From Terriglobia bacterium (GTDB taxonomy: Bacteria; Acidobacteriota; Terriglobia; Acidiferrales; UBA7541), in contig JAIQEV010000015.1 in NCBI GenBank assembly GCA_020073585.1, positions 1 through 64,000 on the forward strand: a DNA stretch of 64,000 bases. Reading direction: 5' to 3'. The notes below the pieces were generated by a model. That model did no database searches and was not told the origin of the DNA. It saw nothing but the letters and a program-made list of their open reading frames with translations. A program made the translations under genes and the position numbers. Below, one piece after another: positions 32,949 to 42,854 of the stretch. Positions within the stretch are counted from its first letter, which is position 1, and every line of letters begins with the position of its first letter.

Positions 32949-34205
32949 TTAGTACCCGCTCGGCCGCGCCAGCGTGTCGATGTACGCGCCGGAGCGCGGG
33001 CTGTCCGACCACACTTGCATCGCCAAATCGAAGTAGAAGATATACGACGCCGCGAGCCCGCCGCTGGCCCCGTAGATCGGAAACACCGTGTTGCCGTTGA
33101 CCTCGAAGAAGTCAATGTCCTTCAGCACGGCGCGGCCCCAGTGCGAGAGGTCCAGGAAGTCCACGCGCGTCTGATCGGCGTTCACGCTGGACTTGATCGG
33201 GATCCCACTCATCGTCTTGCGCCCGCTGAAGAGCAGATCCAGGTCGTTGCCGTCGCGCCCGCCGCCTTCCTTGATGATCTGGCTGACGGTGATCCCCAGG
33301 TTCTCCCAGGCGTGCTCCTGCTCCACCGCCATGTAGGCGATGAGCTTGCCCAGGTGGTTGATGCCCAGGGCCTTGCGTACCTTGTTGATGGCCAGGCGCA
33401 CGTTGGCCGGTGTCAGCGCGGCGTTGCCCGCATTGACGCGCGGCGTGGCCAGCTGCACCGGATAGGTCGCGCGGTTCAGGTTCAGCCACGTTCCGGTCGT
33501 CGCGTTGTTCTGGTGATACTTGATGCCGAACAGCGACACCGGGCTCGCCCCGCTCAGCCCGTCGTGCACCAGCACGTCGCCCACCACCAGCCCGCCCGGG
33601 TTGGCGTCCAGAGTGATCGTCTGCGTCGCGCTGATGGGGTCTGCCGCGGTCACGTTGGCCGTGCCGCGGTTGGTCGTCAGCGTCGTGTCGTATGCCTGGA
33701 CCGTTTGCCCGACGTAGACCAGCGCGGCGCCGCTGGGCACGCTCATCGTCAGCGTCGTGCCGTTGATCGCGCTGATCGTGCCCAGCACGCCGTTCCCGCC
33801 GGTCTGCATCAGCTTGTCGAGGAACGACCGGAACTGCTTCATCCCGTTGGCCACCTCGCGCTTGGCCGCGTTTTCCACCGCCCGCTCACGGCCCGCCGTC
33901 GCGTACTCCACCAGCTTCGTGATTTCAATCGCGAAGCGGAAGAAGATCGGCGAAATGGTGGCCACGTCGTACTGCGTTCCGGAGCCGCGGCCCAGGTCGC
34001 CGCCGTCCGCGTTGTAGCTGCCCGCCTTGCCGCCCGGGTTCACCTGCAGCGGCAGGCGCATCGCGCGGTTGGAAATCTTCTCCACATCGCCGCGCTGCTG
34101 GATCATCGTAAGCAGAATGTCGTCGCGCTCGTAGAGCAGAGGCACCTTGTCGCGCACCTTCTCGAGCTGCAGCGCGACGACGTTCGCGTTGTTCTGTGCT
34201 GGCAT
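32949..34205 (-). CDS. Major capsid protein-like
   Basis: 418 residues. The order (portal, scaffold, then this) and the sequence support an HK97-fold capsid: DVEKISNRAMRLPLQVNPGG N-terminal arm, an extended E-loop-like central segment with VGQTVQAYDTTL, and a C-terminal A-domain with AYMAVEQEHAWENLGITVSQ and FEVNGNTVFPIYG. The start ATG 34205 has a strong AAGGAG RBS. It assembles the procapsid with the scaffold protein encoded upstream. Confidence 0.8.
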   Translation of the reverse strand: MPAQNNANVVALQLEKVRDKVPLLYERDDILLTMIQQRGDVEKISNRAMRLPLQVNPGGKAGSYNADGGDLGRGSGTQYDVATISPIFFRFAIEITKLVEYATAGRERAVENAAKREVANGMKQFRSFLDKLMQTGGNGVLGTISAINGTTLTMSVPSGAALVYVGQTVQAYDTTLTTNRGTANVTAADPISATQTITLDANPGGLVVGDVLVHDGLSGASPVSLFGIKYHQNNATTGTWLNLNRATYPVQLATPRVNAGNAALTPANVRLAINKVRKALGINHLGKLIAYMAVEQEHAWENLGITVSQIIKEGGGRDGNDLDLLFSGRKTMSGIPIKSSVNADQTRVDFLDLSHWGRAVLKDIDFFEVNGNTVFPIYGASGGLAASYIFYFDLAMQVWSDSPRSGAYIDTLARPSGY

Positions 34206-34419: not shown

Positions 34420-35883
34420 TTACATCTCCAGGATCTGTTCGTCGCTCATCTTGCGGTAATCCACGCCTCGCGCCCGGGTCGCGCCGGCGTCCCGCTGACG
34501 GTTGGGCCGCTCCGGGCTGCCGCGCAAACCCGTGGCCGCTTCCGCTCCGGCCCGGCTCCGGGAATTCGCCGGCGCCACATCCGTCCGCGCCGCAGCCGCA
34601 TCCCCCCGCCCGCCCCGCGCGCGATGCGCCGCCAGCGCCGTCTGCGTCCACTCCTGCAGCACGCGCCGCGCCGCTCCCGGCACCAGTTGCCGCGCCCGCT
34701 CCCCGATCAGCCGCACCACCTGCCCGCGCGCCTCTTCATCCAGCCGCGGCCCCTGCGCCCCCGCGCCGCCCAGCACCCGCGCCACCTGCTCGCCCAGTTG
34801 CCGGTCGCTGCGCAGCCCCGCCTCCACCTCTTCCCGGATCGCCGCGCTCAGCCGCTCCTGCACCGATCCCCGCCCGGATGCTACAGCGCCGCGCGAAGCT
34901 TGTCCCGTCCTCCCCGCATCTCCGCCGGTTTCGGCGTAAGGCAAGGCCCGCTCAATCGTCCGCGCAATCTCCCCGCCCACCTCGCGGTTCAAATCCTCGT
35001 TCGCCGCCCGCTCAAACGCCGCATACCGCGCCACGCCTTCTTCGGTCATTCCCAGCGCGGGGCCGCCGCTCTTGCGGCCCGCAGTCAAGGAATCTCTCTG
35101 CCGTGACTCGTGACTAGTGACTGGTGACTCGTGGGGAACGCCGGTAACGGCAGCCGGCACGACATTCTTCTCTCCGTGACTCTGTGCCGGCGCCTGCCCC
35201 GACCCAGTCGGGGTGGCTTTTTGAAGAATTTTCACTCCCGCCGCCACCATCTCCCGGAACGCCGCCGGATCTTCCCGCAGCAGCGTCTGCGCCAGCTCCT
35301 CCCGCGCCGCCGCCGCTTCCTCCGGCCGCCCGCCGCTGGCCCCGAAATACAAGCGGTCGATCGTCTCCAACTGCCGCGCCCGTTCCGCCGCCGCCCGCCC
35401 CTCGTTCACCCCGCCCGGGTAGATCTCCTTGAGCTGCCGCGCTTCCTCAGGCGTCGCAAACGCCGCGCGGTACGCCGCCGCCTCCTGCCGCGCCTTCTGC
35501 GCCCCTTCCCAGAACTCCCGCGCCTCCGCCCCGCGCTCCGGATCGCTCATCGCCCGCGCCAGCCACTCCGGCGCGTGCCCCGTTTCTTGCCTCGCCGCCG
35601 GCCCTTGCTCGCCAGCCTGCGCTGCCCCATCGGCCGCATCTGTAGCGCGGGGCGCCAGCCCCGCGGCATTTTCCGCTCGCGGATTCTCCTCCCCGCGACC
35701 AGCACCACCCGCAGGGCTATCGCCCTGCGCTACACGCCCGCCGCGCCCCGCCCCCTCTTCCCCGCTCGCGTCTCCTTCCGGCTCCATCTCCAGGATCTGC
35801 TCGTCGCTCATCGCGTACAGCACATCCCCCACGGCCGCATGCCCGTTCGTCCCCGTGGTGTTTGTTGGTTCCAGAGAATTCAT
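34420..35883 (-). CDS. Scaffold protein with embedded repeats
   Basis: 487 residues, acidic and Ala/Arg/Glu-rich, with long helices (EEARQLKEIYPGGVNEGRAA; VARVLGGAGAQGPRLDEEAR), typical of phage capsid-assembly scaffolds, located between portal and capsid. The nonapeptide MSDEQILEM occurs near the N-terminus (about residues 25-33) and again as the last nine residues. Family A, B and D repeats lie in frame within it. ATG 35883 has a GAGGCGAGG RBS and follows the cassette terminator at 35901-35928. Confidence 0.75.
   Translation of the reverse strand: MNSLEPTNTTGTNGHAAVGDVLYAMSDEQILEMEPEGDASGEEGAGRGGRVAQGDSPAGGAGRGEENPRAENAAGLAPRATDAADGAAQAGEQGPAARQETGHAPEWLARAMSDPERGAEAREFWEGAQKARQEAAAYRAAFATPEEARQLKEIYPGGVNEGRAAAERARQLETIDRLYFGASGGRPEEAAAAREELAQTLLREDPAAFREMVAAGVKILQKATPTGSGQAPAQSHGEKNVVPAAVTGVPHESPVTSHESRQRDSLTAGRKSGGPALGMTEEGVARYAAFERAANEDLNREVGGEIARTIERALPYAETGGDAGRTGQASRGAVASGRGSVQERLSAAIREEVEAGLRSDRQLGEQVARVLGGAGAQGPRLDEEARGQVVRLIGERARQLVPGAARRVLQEWTQTALAAHRARGGRGDAAAARTDVAPANSRSRAGAEAATGLRGSPERPNRQRDAGATRARGVDYRKMSDEQILEM
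35102..35135. repeat. iterated repeat family A in the scaffold gene
   Basis: CGTGACTCGTGACTAGTGAC followed by TGGTGACTCGTGGGG. Translated on the minus strand it reads HESPVTSHESR, and the frame remains open. Confidence 0.85.
35173..35218. repeat. palindromic repeat family D in the scaffold gene
   Basis: GCCCCGACCCAGTCGGGGTG hairpin with a conserved flank (TCTGTGCCGGCGCCT). It is nearly identical to 39275-39321 in the portal gene. Both translate to ATPTGSGQAPA. Confidence 0.85.
35641..35735. repeat. REPIN-like inverted pair, family B, in the scaffold gene
   Basis: TGTAGCGCGGGGCGCCAGCC (35641 onward) and the inverted CGCAGGGCTATCGCCCTGCG (ending 35735) are placed like the pair at 32178-32253. 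Both arms are translated without a stop. Confidence 0.85.
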
Positions 35884-35900: not shown

Positions 35901-35928
35901 AAAAAACCCCGATTTCTCAGGGCTTTTC
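35901..35928 (-). terminator. intrinsic terminator of the protease cassette
   Basis: On the minus strand a stem AAAAGCCCTG / CGGGGTTTTT with a six-base loop ends in a T-run, 28 bases past the 328-residue gene. Confidence 0.8.
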
Positions 35929-35955
35929 ATGACAACTCAATTCGTCGCGACTGTT

Positions 35956-36942
35956 TTACCCCGGCTCAGGATTTGGAGGCGCTGGCTGTGCGGGCTGCTG
36001 TGGGGGCACGGGGCCCAGCTGCAGATTAACCACCTGTTGAATTTGGAATCGCCGCCGAAATGCCACTCCGTAGGCATTCTCAAAAAACTTAGCAGTGTCG
36101 GTATTGTCCACGAACCATTCGACCTCCGCCCACAGTTGCGAAAACATATCTCGCAGCTCAGCGGCTTCTCGGAGATCGACCACGTGAAGTTTCAGGTGGT
36201 TCTTCAAGGTGTCGATTGTTATGGGCCTTCCGTGGGAGAGGCGGTCTCGATGAGTTGAAAGGTACTTCGTAATCCTGGTGGCCTTCTCGCCAGCTCTCGC
36301 GTCTCCTTTGAACATGTAGGACTTCAACCAACTCCTGACTAATGTTTTCGACAGTTTGTCGGCATTCTCGCAGATCTCAAACAAGTGCAAATCTAGCTTG
36401 TTGAGCAGTGGAAGATACACGCCTAACGCATCAGGATTCTTTTTGATCTCGTCTTTGGCCTTCCGGAATCCATCTAGGACAGCTTGCGTGGGCACCGCAA
36501 TCGATTGCCCCGTTTGCGGGTCACGATAAACGATTTGCGGATCGATAGGTCCAAGTGCTGACGTATCGTCAAGAACAAGTTGGTCCCCGGACATGGCAAG
36601 CATGGTAGCCGCACTGAATGCGCTATGAAGAACCACAAACCGCACACTGTCAAACCGTGCTCGCAGCAAAGAGACTATTCGCTCGGTTGCTTCCGCGAGG
36701 CCTCCAGGGCTATGCAGCAGAATGTCGAGTGCTTTTCCAGGAACTGTCCTAGTAAGCTCGGAAAAGGGAGTGACATCTGTATTGTCGATACTGTTGGGTA
36801 TGTTGGGGTGATTAAAATTCGCAGCGTAAACGACTATCGGGCGACCTGTTGCTTGCTCAATTGCCCTTAACAGAGCAATGCGTCTCTCAAATCGTTCTTG
36901 ACCTTGACCGGGATTAGCGATCAGTTCGTGATACCGCGCCAT
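35956..36942 (-). CDS. Serine-dehydrogenase-proteinase/ClpP-fold protease-like protein
   Basis: 328 residues of the SDH-proteinase type (ClpP/crotonase fold). Visible motifs are the oxyanion strand LLHSPGG (75-81), the nucleophile region HSAFSAATMLAMSGD with candidate Ser110, and SALGPIDPQ (128-136). The C-terminus is Pro-rich and disordered. Its position between portal and scaffold is where a prohead protease is expected in tailed phages, but its lower GC content and own promoter and terminator mark it as an insertion. It overlaps the small partner gene by 29 bases. The role is uncertain: capsid maturation, cargo enzyme or phage-competition function. Confidence 0.75.
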   Translation of the reverse strand: MARYHELIANPGQGQERFERRIALLRAIEQATGRPIVVYAANFNHPNIPNSIDNTDVTPFSELTRTVPGKALDILLHSPGGLAEATERIVSLLRARFDSVRFVVLHSAFSAATMLAMSGDQLVLDDTSALGPIDPQIVYRDPQTGQSIAVPTQAVLDGFRKAKDEIKKNPDALGVYLPLLNKLDLHLFEICENADKLSKTLVRSWLKSYMFKGDARAGEKATRITKYLSTHRDRLSHGRPITIDTLKNHLKLHVVDLREAAELRDMFSQLWAEVEWFVDNTDTAKFFENAYGVAFRRRFQIQQVVNLQLGPVPPQQPAQPAPPNPEPG

Positions 36943-37144
36943 TCAGTTCAACCTCAGCGGTCGAGCCAACGGCCAGATCACGAACAATCCGTTGGGTGCC
37001 AGTCAGGCGCAGGAAATTACCAAATGTCTCCTGCGCCTTCTTCATGCGCGAGAAATACTCCACTACTTCGGGATGCGCATTCAGATAGGCTTGCAACTCT
37101 CTCTCCGTCACGATCTCGCGGGGCAATCGGTCCCTGAGGCTCAT
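36914..37144 (-). CDS. Small partner protein of the protease cassette
   Basis: 76 residues from ATG 37144, preceded by a purine-rich GGAG (TTGGAGAGAA on the plus strand reads as RBS in reverse). It is predominantly helical and charged (RLPREIVTERELQAYLNAHP; YFSRMKKAQETFGN). Its 3' end overlaps the protease gene, implying co-translation. The family is not recognised; it may be an inhibitor, adaptor or substrate of the protease. Confidence 0.6.
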   Translation of the reverse strand: MSLRDRLPREIVTERELQAYLNAHPEVVEYFSRMKKAQETFGNFLRLTGTQRIVRDLAVGSTAEVELNGAVSRTDR

Positions 37145-37230
37145 TTGAGAAACCTCCCTTGGAGAGAATACCCTCAAACGAAAGAAAACTGGCCGGGCTC
37201 AGGGCAATGTTCCTACCCTGCACCTGTCCC

Positions 37231-37259
37231 ATAGTACAGATAGCATATGGATTGGTCAA
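37231..37259 (-). promoter_or_regulatory. promoter of the protease cassette
   Basis: TTGACC (37259-37254) and TACTAT (37236-37231) on the minus strand, with an exact 17-base spacer. Confidence 0.7.
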
Positions 37260-37355: not shown

Positions 37356-40130
37356 TCACCGCCCGAAATTACTCGGTCCAGAGCTGGCTGCGGCCCGCAG
37401 ATGCGCCTCGGCGTGCGCGCGCACGTTGGCGAAGCCCGCGGGGTTGGTCATCTTCGCTGCCTGCCCCGCATCCGAATTGGCCCAGCGCTTGCACTCCTCG
37501 AATTCCGCCGCATGGTCGTCCAGCAGCTCGTCCACCGGCACCGACGGCAGCAGCAGAAACGGTGACTGGTGACTCGTGACTGGTGACTCGTGGGGGACGC
37601 CTTGCTCGGCTCCGTCTGTAGGGGCGGGGCTCGCCCCGCCCGCCGCTGCGTCTTGGCTGGGCGCTTCGGTCACACCCGAATTTCGCGTTTCGTATTTCGC
37701 GTTTCGCGCTTCGCCCGGCGCCGCCACCACCACCGGCGCGTTCGAGAGCAACTGTTGAATCTCCCGCAACTGCTTGTTCCGCGCGTCCTCCCCCGGCACC
37801 ACCAGCTCCGTCAACCCCAGGACATTCTTGATGTACCCGATGTTCGCCGGCTCGCTGAGCGCCCGCTGGATCACCGGGTCGTTGATCCCAAAAAGTTGCT
37901 GCAACACCCCGCGCTGCTGCGATTTCAGCCGCGGGAAAGTCTCATCCGCCTCCGGATGCACCGCGATATTGCCCTTCAGGTCCGCCAGGCGGATCACCCG
38001 CGAATCGAACACTCCGTCCGGCCCCAGCAGCGGAATCTCCGCGTCCTCCGGGCGGTTCTTGCGGAAGCAATCCACCGCCAGCAGCATCACGTCGGCGTAA
38101 AACTGTTTCGTGCGCCGCCACACCAGCCCCAGCCGCCCCATGGCCTGGTCGCGCGCCATGGCGTAGCCCGACGCCGTCTTCACGCCCTCCATGTTCCCGC
38201 CGAACACCGCGGGAAACAGCCCCGTCAGAAATTGCGACACCGGACCGATCAGGTCCTGCTGGTGCCGCAGCATGTCCGGAGGCACCTGCGCCGGCGCCGG
38301 CTGGAAAAATCCCGCCGCGAGCGGCTGTCCCGGCCGCGCGCGCGCCGGAAAGTGCGCCGCCGGCTCGGCCACCTGGTTGGCCAGCGCGTCGAAATCGAGC
38401 ACCTGCGGATCGGCGTAGATCGGCGGGATGCCGTATTCATACGTCTCCGCCTGCATGTTGGAGAGCACGTTGTAGCGCTCCTGCACCTGCACCAGAGAAT
38501 CGCCGACGCTCGGGCGGTTCTGCCCGTCGCCCGGCAGCGCATGAAGCACCCGCCAGTGGTCGTCCATCGTCTCGTTGCGCGCTTCGCAATAAGCCTCGCC
38601 CGCAAACGCCACGTAGCAGCCGTCGGGGAACAGCGCCAGCAGCTCCGCGCGCACCCCTTCGTCTTCGATCGCGTAGAACGCCCACGGCCGGATCCAGGTG
38701 CGGTCGAAGGTGATCAAATTCACCAGCGCGTCGCCCGGATGGATGGACGGCAGCCCCTGCGACACGCTCAGCCGCGACACCCGCGCGTATACGTCCTCCG
38801 AGCCCTGCGACGGTGAACTTTCGATCTTGTTCGCGGCGTGCGGATACGCGGCCTTCAGCTTCGCGCGATGCACCTCCGCCTGCCACTGCAGGTAGGGATA
38901 CTCGTGCATCTCGTTGGCCCACACCGGCGTATTCAGCTCCAGCCCGCCGACAATCGAGATCACTTCCTGCCCATTCGCCACCCGCCGCCGCCCCGCCACC
39001 CGCGGCACGGTCACCCGCTCCGCCCGCCGGATGTCCCCCTCGCTCAGTTCCGCCCCGCACTGCTCGCAAACTCCGTGACTCGTGGTTGGAATTTCGTGAC
39101 TGGTGACTCGTGACTCGTGACTCGTGGAAGATCCCCAGCCCTCACCACCCTCTGTAGGGGCGAGGCTTGCCCCGCCCGCCGCTGCGTCTTGGCCAAACCC
39201 ATTCGCCTCACCCGCGCTGTAGCCGCCCTCTTCAGAGGGCGGGCCTTGCTCTTTTCCCTCTTCCCCCGTTCCTTCTCCGTGCCTCCGCGCCGGCGCCTGC
39301 CCCGACCCTGTCGGGGTGGCTAATCTTCCTTTCTTTCCGCACGCCGGGCACACATACACATCCTCGCCCAGCGGAATCTCCACCGCCTCCAGCAGCTCCT
39401 CCTCGTGAAACCCGAAGCGCTGCCCGTCCGCCACGTAGCGCACGTACCCGCCCAGCTTCCCGTCGGTCCACAGGTGATAGCCGACCAGCGTCAGCAGGTG
39501 CTCGATGTGATTGTTCTGCTCGATCAGTTCGGCCACGTCGCTCGCCGCGCGCGCCGCCGCAATGTCATCGAGCGACTGCGCCGACTGCGGATAGAAGCGC
39601 ACCCCCGGCACGTCCTGTGAAAGCACGGCGATGAACGATAGCCCGAAGCCCTGGTAAAAATTGGTGACGAACTGATAGCGCGGCATCTCCTCCAGCGCCC
39701 GGTCGTCGCTGAAGCGCTGCTCGAACGGCAGATGCCAGTTCATGTCGTTGGGATTCCACCAGGCATACTGCAGCCCCTGCCAGAAAAGGCGCGCCTGGCG
39801 CATGCGCCGGATCTCGTGCCGCCGCGCCACCACGCCCTCTTCACGGTACTGCCGCACCAGGTCGCGCAGCGCATTCACCAGTTCCGGCCGCAACTCCTCC
39901 AGCCGCTCGAAATTCGCCCCCAGCTCTTCCCGTGTAGCGCCGGGCTTTAGCCCGGCATCTTCACCGGCCGCCGCAGCGCTCTCGCGCGCCGCATTTCCAT
40001 CCGCAACTCGAAAATCGAAATTCGTCTCGGACTCCGGCGAATTCCGGTTTTCGTATTTCGCGTTTCGTCCCGCATTCCCATCTGCCGACGCGACCGTGCC
40101 TCTGCCCTCAACTGTGTGGAACGGGTCCAT
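37356..40130 (-). CDS. Large portal protein with embedded repeats
   Basis: 924 residues, matching the large portal of short-tailed phages by order and by NFYQGFGLSFIAVLSQDVPG, VQVQERYNVLSNMQAETYEY and LTGLFPAVFGGNMEGVKTASG. It forms the dodecameric gate for DNA entry and exit. A zinc ribbon is present: CPACG (about 39340-39352) and CEQCG (about 39058-39072), but the two knuckles are separated by about 85 residues of repeat sequence. The peptides QDAAAGGASxAPT, RNAKYExRNS and HESxVTSHxS each occur twice in the protein. It overlaps the upstream small gene by 23 bases. Confidence 0.8.
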   Translation of the reverse strand: MDPFHTVEGRGTVASADGNAGRNAKYENRNSPESETNFDFRVADGNAARESAAAAGEDAGLKPGATREELGANFERLEELRPELVNALRDLVRQYREEGVVARRHEIRRMRQARLFWQGLQYAWWNPNDMNWHLPFEQRFSDDRALEEMPRYQFVTNFYQGFGLSFIAVLSQDVPGVRFYPQSAQSLDDIAAARAASDVAELIEQNNHIEHLLTLVGYHLWTDGKLGGYVRYVADGQRFGFHEEELLEAVEIPLGEDVYVCPACGKKGRLATPTGSGQAPARRHGEGTGEEGKEQGPPSEEGGYSAGEANGFGQDAAAGGASLAPTEGGEGWGSSTSHESRVTSHEIPTTSHGVCEQCGAELSEGDIRRAERVTVPRVAGRRRVANGQEVISIVGGLELNTPVWANEMHEYPYLQWQAEVHRAKLKAAYPHAANKIESSPSQGSEDVYARVSRLSVSQGLPSIHPGDALVNLITFDRTWIRPWAFYAIEDEGVRAELLALFPDGCYVAFAGEAYCEARNETMDDHWRVLHALPGDGQNRPSVGDSLVQVQERYNVLSNMQAETYEYGIPPIYADPQVLDFDALANQVAEPAAHFPARARPGQPLAAGFFQPAPAQVPPDMLRHQQDLIGPVSQFLTGLFPAVFGGNMEGVKTASGYAMARDQAMGRLGLVWRRTKQFYADVMLLAVDCFRKNRPEDAEIPLLGPDGVFDSRVIRLADLKGNIAVHPEADETFPRLKSQQRGVLQQLFGINDPVIQRALSEPANIGYIKNVLGLTELVVPGEDARNKQLREIQQLLSNAPVVVAAPGEARNAKYETRNSGVTEAPSQDAAAGGASPAPTDGAEQGVPHESPVTSHQSPFLLLPSVPVDELLDDHAAEFEECKRWANSDAGQAAKMTNPAGFANVRAHAEAHLRAAASSGPSNFGR
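37561..37715. repeat. repeat cluster A + C + E in the portal 3' region
   Basis: In succession: family A (37561-37593, GGTGACTGGTGACTCGTGAC), family C (37617-37660, GTAGGGGCGGGGCTCGCCCC palindrome with GCCGCTGCGTCTTGG flank) and family E (37677-37715, TTTCGCGTTTCGTATTTCGC). All are translated in the portal frame. Confidence 0.85.
39073..39321. repeat. repeat cluster A + C + single hairpin + D in the portal zinc ribbon
   Basis: Family A (39073-39127), family C (39152-39200, GTAGGGGCGAGGCTTGCCCC), hairpin GCCCTCTTCAGAGGGC (39226-39241) and family D (39275-39321) lie end to end between the two CxxC pairs of the zinc ribbon. Confidence 0.85.
39932..40072. repeat. repeat cluster B + E in the portal 5' region
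   Basis: Family B palindrome (39932-39960, TGTAGCGCCGGGCTTTAGCC) and family E (about 40036-40072, GTTTTCGTATTTCGCGTTTC). Translation gives DAGLKPGATREELG and RNAKYENRNS. Confidence 0.8.
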
Positions 40131-40521: not shown

Positions 40522-40550
40522 TTACAGTTATCTGGCAATTGTGCTATGCT
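40522..40550 (+). promoter_or_regulatory. promoter of the MazEF-like pair
   Basis: TTACAG (40522-40527) and TATGCT (40545-40550, with an extended TGTGC) have a 17-base spacer in an AT-rich patch that contrasts with the surrounding phage DNA. Confidence 0.55.
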
Positions 40551-40577
40551 TCTGTCGTGGAGGCCGGGAGGTACACG

Positions 40578-40853
40578 ATGTCTGCTGCTTCGACTCGCCA
40601 CAAGCTATCGACTACTGTCGCCACCGAGACGGACGCCTATCTCAAAGCATTGATCCGCAGAGGCAACGCTTCGACACTGGCCGAAGCGCTTGACCACGTG
40701 GTGGCCCTCGCACGCCGCGCAGAAGCCCGCGCTCATCTGGAAGAAGCTACGGCTTCCTATTTTGCTTCCCGCTCCCCCGAAACGGCTGAAGAAGAAGCCC
40801 GGCTCGAAGTAGCCCTCGGCGCTGCTGCCGACGAGGTTCATTTTGACGAGTGA
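40578..40853 (+). CDS. Antitoxin of a MazEF-like pair
   Basis: 91 residues from ATG 40578 with a GGGAGG RBS. The N-terminal part (HKLSTTVATETDAYLKALIR) resembles a short DNA-binding region, and the C-terminal half is an acidic, Ala/Glu-rich helix (ARAHLEEATASYFASRSPET), as in antitoxins that wrap the toxin. It is followed after 13 bases by the toxin-like gene. The exact fold (ribbon-helix-helix or AbrB-like) is not clear. Confidence 0.65.
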   Translation: MSAASTRHKLSTTVATETDAYLKALIRRGNASTLAEALDHVVALARRAEARAHLEEATASYFASRSPETAEEEARLEVALGAAADEVHFDE

Positions 40854-40866
40854 TGCGCCTGGCAGA

Positions 40867-41217
40867 ATGACCACTCCCCGGCGCGGTGAAATCTGGACCG
40901 CGAATCTCGGGAATCCGCCGCAGCGTCATTGGGTGCTCGTCGTCTCGCTCGATGCGCGCAATCTGTCGGATCGCATTGATTCTGTACTGATCATTCCTTT
41001 CGGCTCGGCAGGCAGCCCAGGCCCCACGACCTTGCGGCTCGAGCCAGGAGAGTCCGGTCTGCCCGGCCCTTCCTGGCTCAAAGGCCATTTCATTGCCACG
41101 CTTCCGAAAGCCAGGCTTTTGGAGCGGCAACCGCGCGTTCTCTCCAATCGCAGGATGCACGAGGTGTGCGCGATGATTCGCCGTGCCTACGATCCGGACG
41201 CGCCGCTCAATAATTAG
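40867..41217 (+). CDS. MazF/PemK-like endoribonuclease toxin
   Basis: 116 residues from ATG 40867. Family blocks are RRGEIWTANLGNPPQRHWVLV at the start (split here by wording), IIPFGSAGSPGPTTLRLEP in the middle and CAMIRRAYDP near the end. MazF cleaves mRNA at specific sequences and is neutralised by the upstream antitoxin. The pair stands on the opposite strand to the phage late genes between terminase and portal, consistent with acquisition as a cassette. Confidence 0.75.
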   Translation: MTTPRRGEIWTANLGNPPQRHWVLVVSLDARNLSDRIDSVLIIPFGSAGSPGPTTLRLEPGESGLPGPSWLKGHFIATLPKARLLERQPRVLSNRRMHEVCAMIRRAYDPDAPLNN

Positions 41218-41243: not shown

Positions 41244-42854
41244 CTACGGCCATCTGCGCCGCGGCAGCTTCTTCGGCCGGAAATGCTTTTGCGCCTCGCT
41301 CTCCAGCCGCTGAAAATGGATCGCCCGCGAAGTCGCATCCGTGGCCGACACCTGCCGCGCGATCTGCTCGCCCAGCGGCATGCCGGTCACAAAATGCGCC
41401 CCGGCATCGGCCTGTAGGGGCACGGCACGCCGTGCCCGTCCGTCACCATCGCCCATCGTCAATCCCGCCAGCCGCGCCCCGGACACCAGCCCGTAGCGCG
41501 CCGCATCGGCCGCATCATCCCCATCCATCTTGCGGATGTCCTCGATCTTCCGGTCGTCGCGCACCAGCAGCGGCAAGCATTCCACCAGCCGCGCGCAATT
41601 CTCCGTAATCACCCAGGCGTCGTTCTCCAGCAACTGGTACATCCACTGCCACCCGCCCACGCGGTCGTCGTCCGCCGGCGCCGGCCGCGGCAGCCCGTTG
41701 GCCGCCAGCACCTCGCCCAACTGCTCCGCGATGGACGCCTCCGCCGTGCGGTGCGCAAACGCATCCGGCGAGAGAAACACCTCGCCGATCCGCTCGCGCC
41801 CGCTGCGCTCGGCGATCGCCTGCCCCAGCATCCGCGGCGAAAGCCCGTTCTGCACAAATTCGCGATACGTCACAATCCGTGACGGGTGACTCGTGACGGA
41901 TGACTCGTGACTGGCGCCCCGGTCGGACTCTCTTCCACGAGTCACGAACCACGAGTCACGAGTCACGCTTTCCGCCGGCACCGCGCAATGCCAATAGACC
42001 GCGCTGGGATGCTGAAATCCCCAGTCCACCGAAATCCACCGCGGCCACCACGGCTCCAGCCGCAGTTCCTCCGGCCGCGCCGTGTGCCGTCCCACGTCGA
42101 ACACGTCGAAGTACTGCCCCGCGAAGACGTTCCAGTCGCCTTCCAGGAACGCCTGCCGCAGATGCTCCGGCAGCGCCTCCAGCGTCCGCCGGTAGGCCGC
42201 GTCGTTCGCGTAGATGGGGTTGTCGTCCAGCCGCGCGCGGATGAAGTCGTACTCTCTCGGGTCGTAGCGCTCCGCCCGCTCGAAGCCCGGCGGCGGCACG
42301 TGGTCCACCCACAGCGCCTTCACCCAGGCGTGCCCGATGTTCCCCGGATTCGTCGCCCCGGCCATGCACGGATAGCTCCGCCGCACGGGGCAGCGGTTGC
42401 GCGAAGTCAGAAACTGCCACTGCTTCAGCGTGAAATGCGTCAGCTCGTCGATGCCAATGAACAGAAACTCCGCGCCCTGGTACTGATAGACGTCGTTCTC
42501 GTTGCGGCAGTAGCCGAAGCGCGTGGTGGATCCGTTGTGCCAGGTCACCACATGCTTCGATTCGTTGTAACTGCGGTAAAGAGCGCGCGGCACGTCGCGC
42601 CGGAAATAGGCCAGCAGCGACGTCTCCAGCTCCGGGTAGGTCCGCCGCAGCAGCAGCGTGTCGCACCCCGGCGTCTCGTTGGCCTGCAGGATCGCTTCCC
42701 ACAGCAGCGCCTTGGTCTTCCCCGGCCCCGCCGCGCCTCCGAAAAGCCGGTACTTCGCCCGCGAAACATGAAATTCGCGCTGCCGCGGAAACGGCTGGTA
42801 GTGCGCACTCACCCGCAGCGCTCCCGCCCATCCCCGGCTTCGTCGTGTGCCCAT
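41244..42854 (-). CDS. Terminase large subunit
   Basis: 536 residues. The ATPase half has Walker A GGAAGPGKT (39-47), Walker B FLFIGIDELTHF and the coupling motif GATNPGN. The RNase H-like nuclease half begins with ISVDWGFQHPSAVYW, whose aspartate is the first catalytic acid. It cuts and translocates phage DNA into the procapsid through the portal. In-frame repeats occur just after the first nuclease strand (41879-41968) and in the C-terminal region (41412-41442). ATG 42854 lies five bases from a family B palindrome. Confidence 0.88.
   Translation of the reverse strand: MGTRRSRGWAGALRVSAHYQPFPRQREFHVSRAKYRLFGGAAGPGKTKALLWEAILQANETPGCDTLLLRRTYPELETSLLAYFRRDVPRALYRSYNESKHVVTWHNGSTTRFGYCRNENDVYQYQGAEFLFIGIDELTHFTLKQWQFLTSRNRCPVRRSYPCMAGATNPGNIGHAWVKALWVDHVPPPGFERAERYDPREYDFIRARLDDNPIYANDAAYRRTLEALPEHLRQAFLEGDWNVFAGQYFDVFDVGRHTARPEELRLEPWWPRWISVDWGFQHPSAVYWHCAVPAESVTRDSWFVTRGRESDRGASHESSVTSHPSRIVTYREFVQNGLSPRMLGQAIAERSGRERIGEVFLSPDAFAHRTAEASIAEQLGEVLAANGLPRPAPADDDRVGGWQWMYQLLENDAWVITENCARLVECLPLLVRDDRKIEDIRKMDGDDAADAARYGLVSGARLAGLTMGDGDGRARRAVPLQADAGAHFVTGMPLGEQIARQVSATDATSRAIHFQRLESEAQKHFRPKKLPRRRWP
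41412..41442. repeat. palindromic repeat family C in the terminase C-terminal region
   Basis: CTGTAGGGGCACGGCACGCC continuing GTGCCCGTCCG, translated in frame as DGRARRAVPLQADAG. An intergenic relative lies at 58910-58940. Confidence 0.8.
41879..41968. repeat. two inverted clusters of family A in the terminase nuclease domain
   Basis: CGTGACGGGTGACTCGTGAC (left) and the reverse orientation CCACGAGTCACGAACCACGA (right). Both orientations are translated: SHESSVTSHPS and VTRDSWFVTRG. Confidence 0.85.

Follow-up and report, generated by a model that had tools for sequence, protein, structure and literature searches.

A probable defence-like accessory function, instead of head maturation, for a two-gene cassette with an SDH-type protease in the head cluster of a Terriglobia prophage

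Introduction

A pair of genes like the one described here is listed in DefenseFinder as FS_HP_SDH_sah, which consists of a hypothetical protein and an SDH_sah protease, SDH_sah being the old name of the Pfam family PF01972. The entry reportedly goes back to work that Fillol-Salom and co-workers published in Cell in 2022, where the two adjacent genes are said to lie on phage satellites.

For the enzyme, PHROGs holds a phage family of unknown function, phrog_11747. Amongst solved structures, the membrane-bound protease 1510-N of Pyrococcus is described in its PDB titles as stomatin-specific; mutations of the active residues K138 and S97 are given in these titles, and one of the entries contains a substrate peptide. 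ClpP-related enzymes also include a family of phage head maturation proteases, NF045542. A search of a library of open-access papers retrieved no description of the pair; passages of PMC9239112 and PMC13002856 do not describe it, those of the latter only citing Fillol-Salom 2022.

Here, we analyse a pair of this kind in a prophage within a 64,000-nt stretch of a contig of a Terriglobia bacterium (GenBank JAIQEV010000015.1), hereafter the window.

Results

A Low-GC Cassette in the Head Cluster

Between the portal-like and scaffold-like genes of the head cluster, we found on the minus strand a low-GC cassette of two genes overlapping by 29 nt, which specify proteins of 76 and 328 amino acids (Table 1). 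The names “portal” and “scaffold” stem from the original prediction and are based on position; neither protein matched a PHROGs family. Both reading frames of the predicted cassette are present, and the claimed contrast in composition was confirmed by measurement: GC content is 0.52 in the protease gene and 0.55 in the small gene, against 0.66–0.72 in the portal, scaffold and capsid genes, while third-position GC is 0.54 and 0.61, respectively, against 0.79–0.92 in the neighbours. That both genes are low by either measure indicates a foreign origin common to the two.

Table 1. Positions of the cassette, of its signals and of neighbouring genes in the window, with the genes inserted at the corresponding junction in sister loci.
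Feature	Position	Strand	Remarks
Capsid gene	32949-34205		weak hits, below NCBIfam cut-off
Scaffold-like gene	34420-35883	-	downstream of cassette; right flank of cargo site; seen behind the portal gene in 74 of 99 sister loci
Terminator-like hairpin and U-tract	35905-35928	-	fold z -3.2
SDH-type ClpP-fold serine protease gene	35956-36942	-	328 aa; PF01972, phrog_11747, AF2 fold
Small partner gene	36914-37144	-	76 aa; ATG at 37144; helical hairpin and flexible C-terminal tail
Shine-Dalgarno-like gggagg of small gene	37153-37158	-	9-14 nt upstream of ATG, read from sequence
Promoter-like site TTGACC-17-TACTAT	37259-37231	-	not significant
Portal-like gene	37356-40130	-	upstream of cassette; left flank of cargo site; conserved in 99 other loci
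Second cargo of late cluster	40539-41217	+	includes the gene below
PemK/MazF-like toxin gene	40843-41217	+	PF02452, 44.7 bits
Terminase large subunit gene	41244-42854
Junction insert, L221 and L223			small-membrane-protein operon
Junction insert, L218 and L249			proteins of about 225 aa, no Pfam match
Junction insert, L264 and kin (L262, L266, L271, L277)	L264:10364-11212	opposite	gene combining PilZ with a response-regulator receiver; in a second group of the phages
Junction insert, L267			seemingly a duplicated gene

The cassette had also been credited with a promoter and a terminator of its own, and the letters of both are there. The promoter-like sequence, however, occurs once, as compared to 0.7 ± 0.9 times in shuffles, and is therefore no better than chance. 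The terminator stood up better: directly beyond the protease stop codon, the hairpin CCCUGA-GAAA-UCGGGG is followed by six U and folds with −19.6 kcal/mol, equalled by none of 200 shuffles, although a consensus scanner did not list it. As for the claim that no other protease is visible, none was matched in PHROGs amongst 14 other proteins of the cluster, 10 of which matched no family whatever.

The late cluster carries a second cargo, in which a gene for 104 amino acids lies just ahead of a PemK/MazF-like toxin gene, both read in the opposite direction to the head genes. The portal-like, scaffold-like and terminase genes contain repeats in frame (TSHES.VTSHES, NAKYETRNS, PTGSGQAPA) with the look of translated interspersed DNA repeats, and the portal matches of relatives break near one such repeat tract.

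A Divergent SDH-Type Proteinase with a ClpP Fold

The protease scores 57.2 bits against PF01972 (gathering cut-off 31.3), which places it amongst the SDH-type proteinases with a ClpP fold, and it matches phrog_11747 over the full length (9.9e-57; residues 17–295 on 4–284 of 290). With 61.7 bits, it stays far below the curated cut-off of 250 for NCBIfam NF047768 (SDH family Clp fold serine proteinase), indicating that it belongs to a divergent branch. Its AF2 model, built with 124 relatives (pLDDT 93.9, pTM 0.88), has ClpP and 1510-N as the best solved matches (Foldseek 4e-6; VIA Z 13.4–13.7). The closest predicted viral folds (BFVD) are those of giant-virus SDH proteinases, several copies of which occur in Hyperionvirus.

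The residues originally singled out were all found: HSPGG at 77–81, Ser110 and GPIDPQ at 131–136, with SAxT as a further motif. Invariant in 124 proteases are H77, G80, G81, S110, P132, D134, H237 and K285, so the ClpP-like fold is accompanied by an invariant oxyanion GG pair and a candidate nucleophile serine. Counted by hand, S110 lies 30 residues past the first G of PGG, the same spacing as for the serine of GQAAS in the host's ClpP; the pairing of the two proteins by hhalign is weak (prob 43), with S110 off by one residue. From residue conservation, S110 may form the active site with H237 and D134, or with K285. In a hand alignment, D134 falls near the place of the ClpP histidine and H237 near that of the ClpP aspartate, an arrangement that would amount to a triad with swapped positions.

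The Portal–Scaffold Junction Is a Cargo Site

The slot and orientation of the protease fit the proposal that it is a recruited prohead (head maturation) protease, and no other protease was recognised in the cluster; weak profile matches also point that way (NF045542, 28.1 bits; phrog_53 and phrog_1684, about 26 bits each). Nevertheless, the score against NF045542 is remote from the cut-off of 120 bits, and the related phages speak against a role in the head. We fetched 99 sister loci by the portal gene, 19 from related genomes (with short flanks, the window's own genome excluded) and 80 of 99 viral contigs, some of them near-copies (e.g., L221 and L223). In these loci (921 kb), neither tblastn nor a profile HMM detected the SDH protease in a single case. 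Portal and scaffold genes were both seen in 74 of them, and in 57 of these 74 the junction is closed, the portal gene running into the scaffold gene with a gap of less than 700 nt; relatives of this head thus mature without the protease. Moreover, relatives of the protease lie outside structural modules in most of the phages inspected. We have, therefore, rejected the head maturation protease as highly improbable, which removes a tempting reading of the locus.

At the other 17 junctions, the gap is 0.7 kb or more, and the inserts that we read carry other genes (Table 1). The junction is thus a cargo site in a large phage clade, the protease being one cargo amongst several. The cargo genes in L218, L221, L223, L249 and L267 are low in GC and mostly without a Pfam match. 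The portal gene was found in 99 viral contigs and in 51 of 201 related genomes, while neither portal nor capsid had a match in 50,697 phage records; the clade is of considerable size, yet none of its members is named amongst those records.

The alternative that had been put forward for the cassette, a moron or cargo, is in agreement with its foreign composition, its absence from the 99 sister loci, the other cargo at the junction and the varied accessory sites of its relatives.

A Small Upstream Partner Is Usual for SDH-Type Proteases

The protease reading frame was found in 175 of 178 loci. We looked for small reading frames in the 157 distinct relatives for which the upstream DNA was long enough, using the other genes of those loci as controls. 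An ORF of 45–135 amino acids ends at the protease start in 132 of the 157, as compared to 381 of 1063 control genes. The last 18 residues of these partners contain 34% S/T/N, versus 17% in the control upstream ORFs, and the tail reaches one-third S/T/N in 74 of 132 partners but in only 42 of 381 controls. The small proteins vary greatly: 54 of 135 distinct ones constitute one HMM family with the motif PGVxExMxvY, matched by no decoy, and some of the remaining ones fall into smaller sets.

In the AF2 model of the window's own small protein (pTM 0.46), residues 14–48 are helical and form a hairpin, followed from about residue 51 by a tail with pLDDT of about 60; S/T/N make up 28% of the tail, below the one-third mark. 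The protein belongs to none of the HMM families built from the 135 distinct partners, and no PHROGs family covers it. Its similarity to a profile built from six relatives is weak, its score being reached by 9 of 2000 shuffles, and its best pairwise z is 5.3 amongst 142 upstream partners of other SDH proteases. The pairwise comparison and the tail count used the correct 76-aa protein; in the queries to Pfam, NCBIfam, PHROGs and PADLOC, the first residue was missing, and in the HMM-family clustering it was replaced. None of 1039 long reading frames unites the small protein with the protease in a natural fusion; an apparent one in L139 was the small gene with its start set too far upstream.

A small gene that lies upstream of a larger enzyme gene and overlaps or abuts it in 132 of 157 relatives could also belong to a plain toxin–antitoxin or plasmid/prophage-stability pair, in which the small protein would neutralise the protease and the prophage would be retained by its lineage, while action against phages would play no part. 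The PemK/MazF-like toxin gene of the same cluster and the HicAB genes beside the pair in Porphyromonas phages are compatible with this reading. On the other hand, protease toxins are unusual amongst type II pairs, and, on the sequence evidence at hand, we judge such a function unlikely.

Sporadic Distribution and Genomic Company

Relatives of the protease are sporadic but widespread. They occur in 7 of 50,697 phage records and 33 of 72,556 plasmid records (in four of the latter over most of the length), in 248 viral contigs (80 taken) and in 194 genome contigs (80 taken) from many bacterial phyla and archaea. In the window's genome, the protease is present as a single copy, and a relative was detected in 19 of 300 relatives of the host; within the phylum, 65 of 396 genomes matched phrog_11747 at 1e-20, and the E. 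coli form was found in 17 of 5426 E. coli genomes. The phrog_11747 profile also gave hits in 6 of 14 well-known genomes, those of Methanocaldococcus and Corynebacterium amongst them. This speaks against regarding the family as purely mobile, as some of its members may be ordinary chromosomal proteins. The search for the pair elsewhere thus confirmed that it recurs in phages, bacteria and archaea; since it is also common in cellular genomes, its link with phage clusters holds only in part.

A tree of the proteases (162 rows) requires a minimum of 13 changes from viral to cellular records or back, with archaea at several places. The labels are strongly clustered (14 changes versus 53.5 in shuffles); records L003–L008 were counted as viral, three of them being plasmid records.

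The location of the pair differs from one element to another. In the Gordonia phage BeeGee, where the protease is gene 31 and has a 58-aa ORF ahead of it, it is found with a minor tail gene on one side and the integrase on the other. Elsewhere, it lies in the early region of a Mu-like Shewanella phage, in the structural module of Porphyromonas prophages (where HicAB is found), in a phage nin-like region of a Klebsiella plasmid record and next to an integrase in a P. aeruginosa plasmid record. In an E. coli plasmid record, the protease adjoins a lambdoid repressor, with no small gene before it and a 56-aa gene after it.

This direct contact with a prophage repressor gene is consistent with another reading, regulated proteolysis, in which the protease would cut a prophage or host regulator (a repressor, an anti-sigma factor or a stomatin-like membrane protein), with the small protein as adaptor or substrate. 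The closest solved structure, 1510-N (3viv, 6m4b), does cleave a stomatin partner in its C-terminal part. Yet, the location of the pair varies amongst phages and no regulator is constantly found beside it, and we consider this function decidedly improbable.

In viral contigs, 17 of 137 nearest neighbours match the integrase family phrog_1, a count without a control set (137 of 155 neighbours, near-duplicates dropped). In cellular genomes, nine Pfam families are matched by at least two of 136 nearest neighbours (of 146 ORFs; 110 amino acids or more); they are mostly concerned with restriction–modification, helicase and integrase functions and include DUF1156, phage integrase, N6 methylase, Eco57I, ResIII, NO VEIN and MmeI. 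For comparison, 136 distal control genes (of 178 ORFs, hand-picked from among the first 150) yielded eight Pfam families, including ResIII and DEAD, integrase and methylase being absent. PADLOC matches comprise 189 families near the pair and 35 at the distal controls; these are numbers of families, not of proteins, defence genes occur in both sets, and the two were not cleanly separated by the scan.

Discussion

The cassette is well supported as an accessory mobile element, and it is probably a defence-like system rather than the head maturation protease of the phage. We favour, with a probability of roughly 0.6, a horizontally mobile two-gene cassette that most likely protects the lysogen against other phages and in which the tail of the small protein would engage the protease. 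The position of the cassette, its sporadic spread and its company make an anti-phage purpose the most likely one. The idea of a tail in the active-site groove is suggested by the biased composition of the partners' tails, by the low confidence of the tail when modelled and by the parallel to 1510-N. Against this explanation, the small protein of the window belongs to none of the HMM families, is only weakly similar to other partners and has a tail with 28% S/T/N; no model of PADLOC-DB 2023 fits either the small protein or the protease, and the viral and cellular labels are clustered on the tree.

Under the preferred explanation, the cassette would have inserted between the portal and scaffold genes of this prophage, and the small protein would bind the protease by its tail, as an inhibitor, a substrate or a guide. 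A cue from infection could then alter the contact between tail and protease, upon which the protease would cleave a host or phage protein and stop the infection.

A bolder version, which we put forward tentatively and with some doubt, is that all such pairs represent one very widespread, uncharacterised immunity system based on a protease and common to phages, bacteria and archaea. Its fast-changing small protein would hold the protease in check by an S/T/N-rich tail in the active-site groove, until infection pulls the tail out. Phages would carry the system as cargo against rivals, here at the portal–scaffold site amongst the late genes.

A small, fast-changing partner whose tail tends to be rich in S/T/N is the usual companion of SDH-type proteases in phages, bacteria and archaea, and this brings a large family, whose role is unknown, within reach of functional tests.

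Amongst the known systems, the head maturation proteases of NF045542 share with the protease of the cassette a ClpP fold and a position between portal and capsid; they differ by the profile score and by the complete absence of the protease from the sister loci. The protease 1510-N has the same fold (VIA Z 13.6 over 179 residues), but whereas its mutated active residues are a lysine and a serine and its partner is a stomatin, the enzyme described here has Ser110, Asp134, His237 and Lys285 as invariant candidates, and its partner is small and soluble-looking. The family phrog_11747 covers the protease only, leaving the small partner outside. The organisation of FS_HP_SDH_sah, as defined above, is reproduced in the cassette, where a small hypothetical gene lies directly beside a PF01972 gene. 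If this definition is right, the cassette is a further member or a relative of that known, mechanistically open system.
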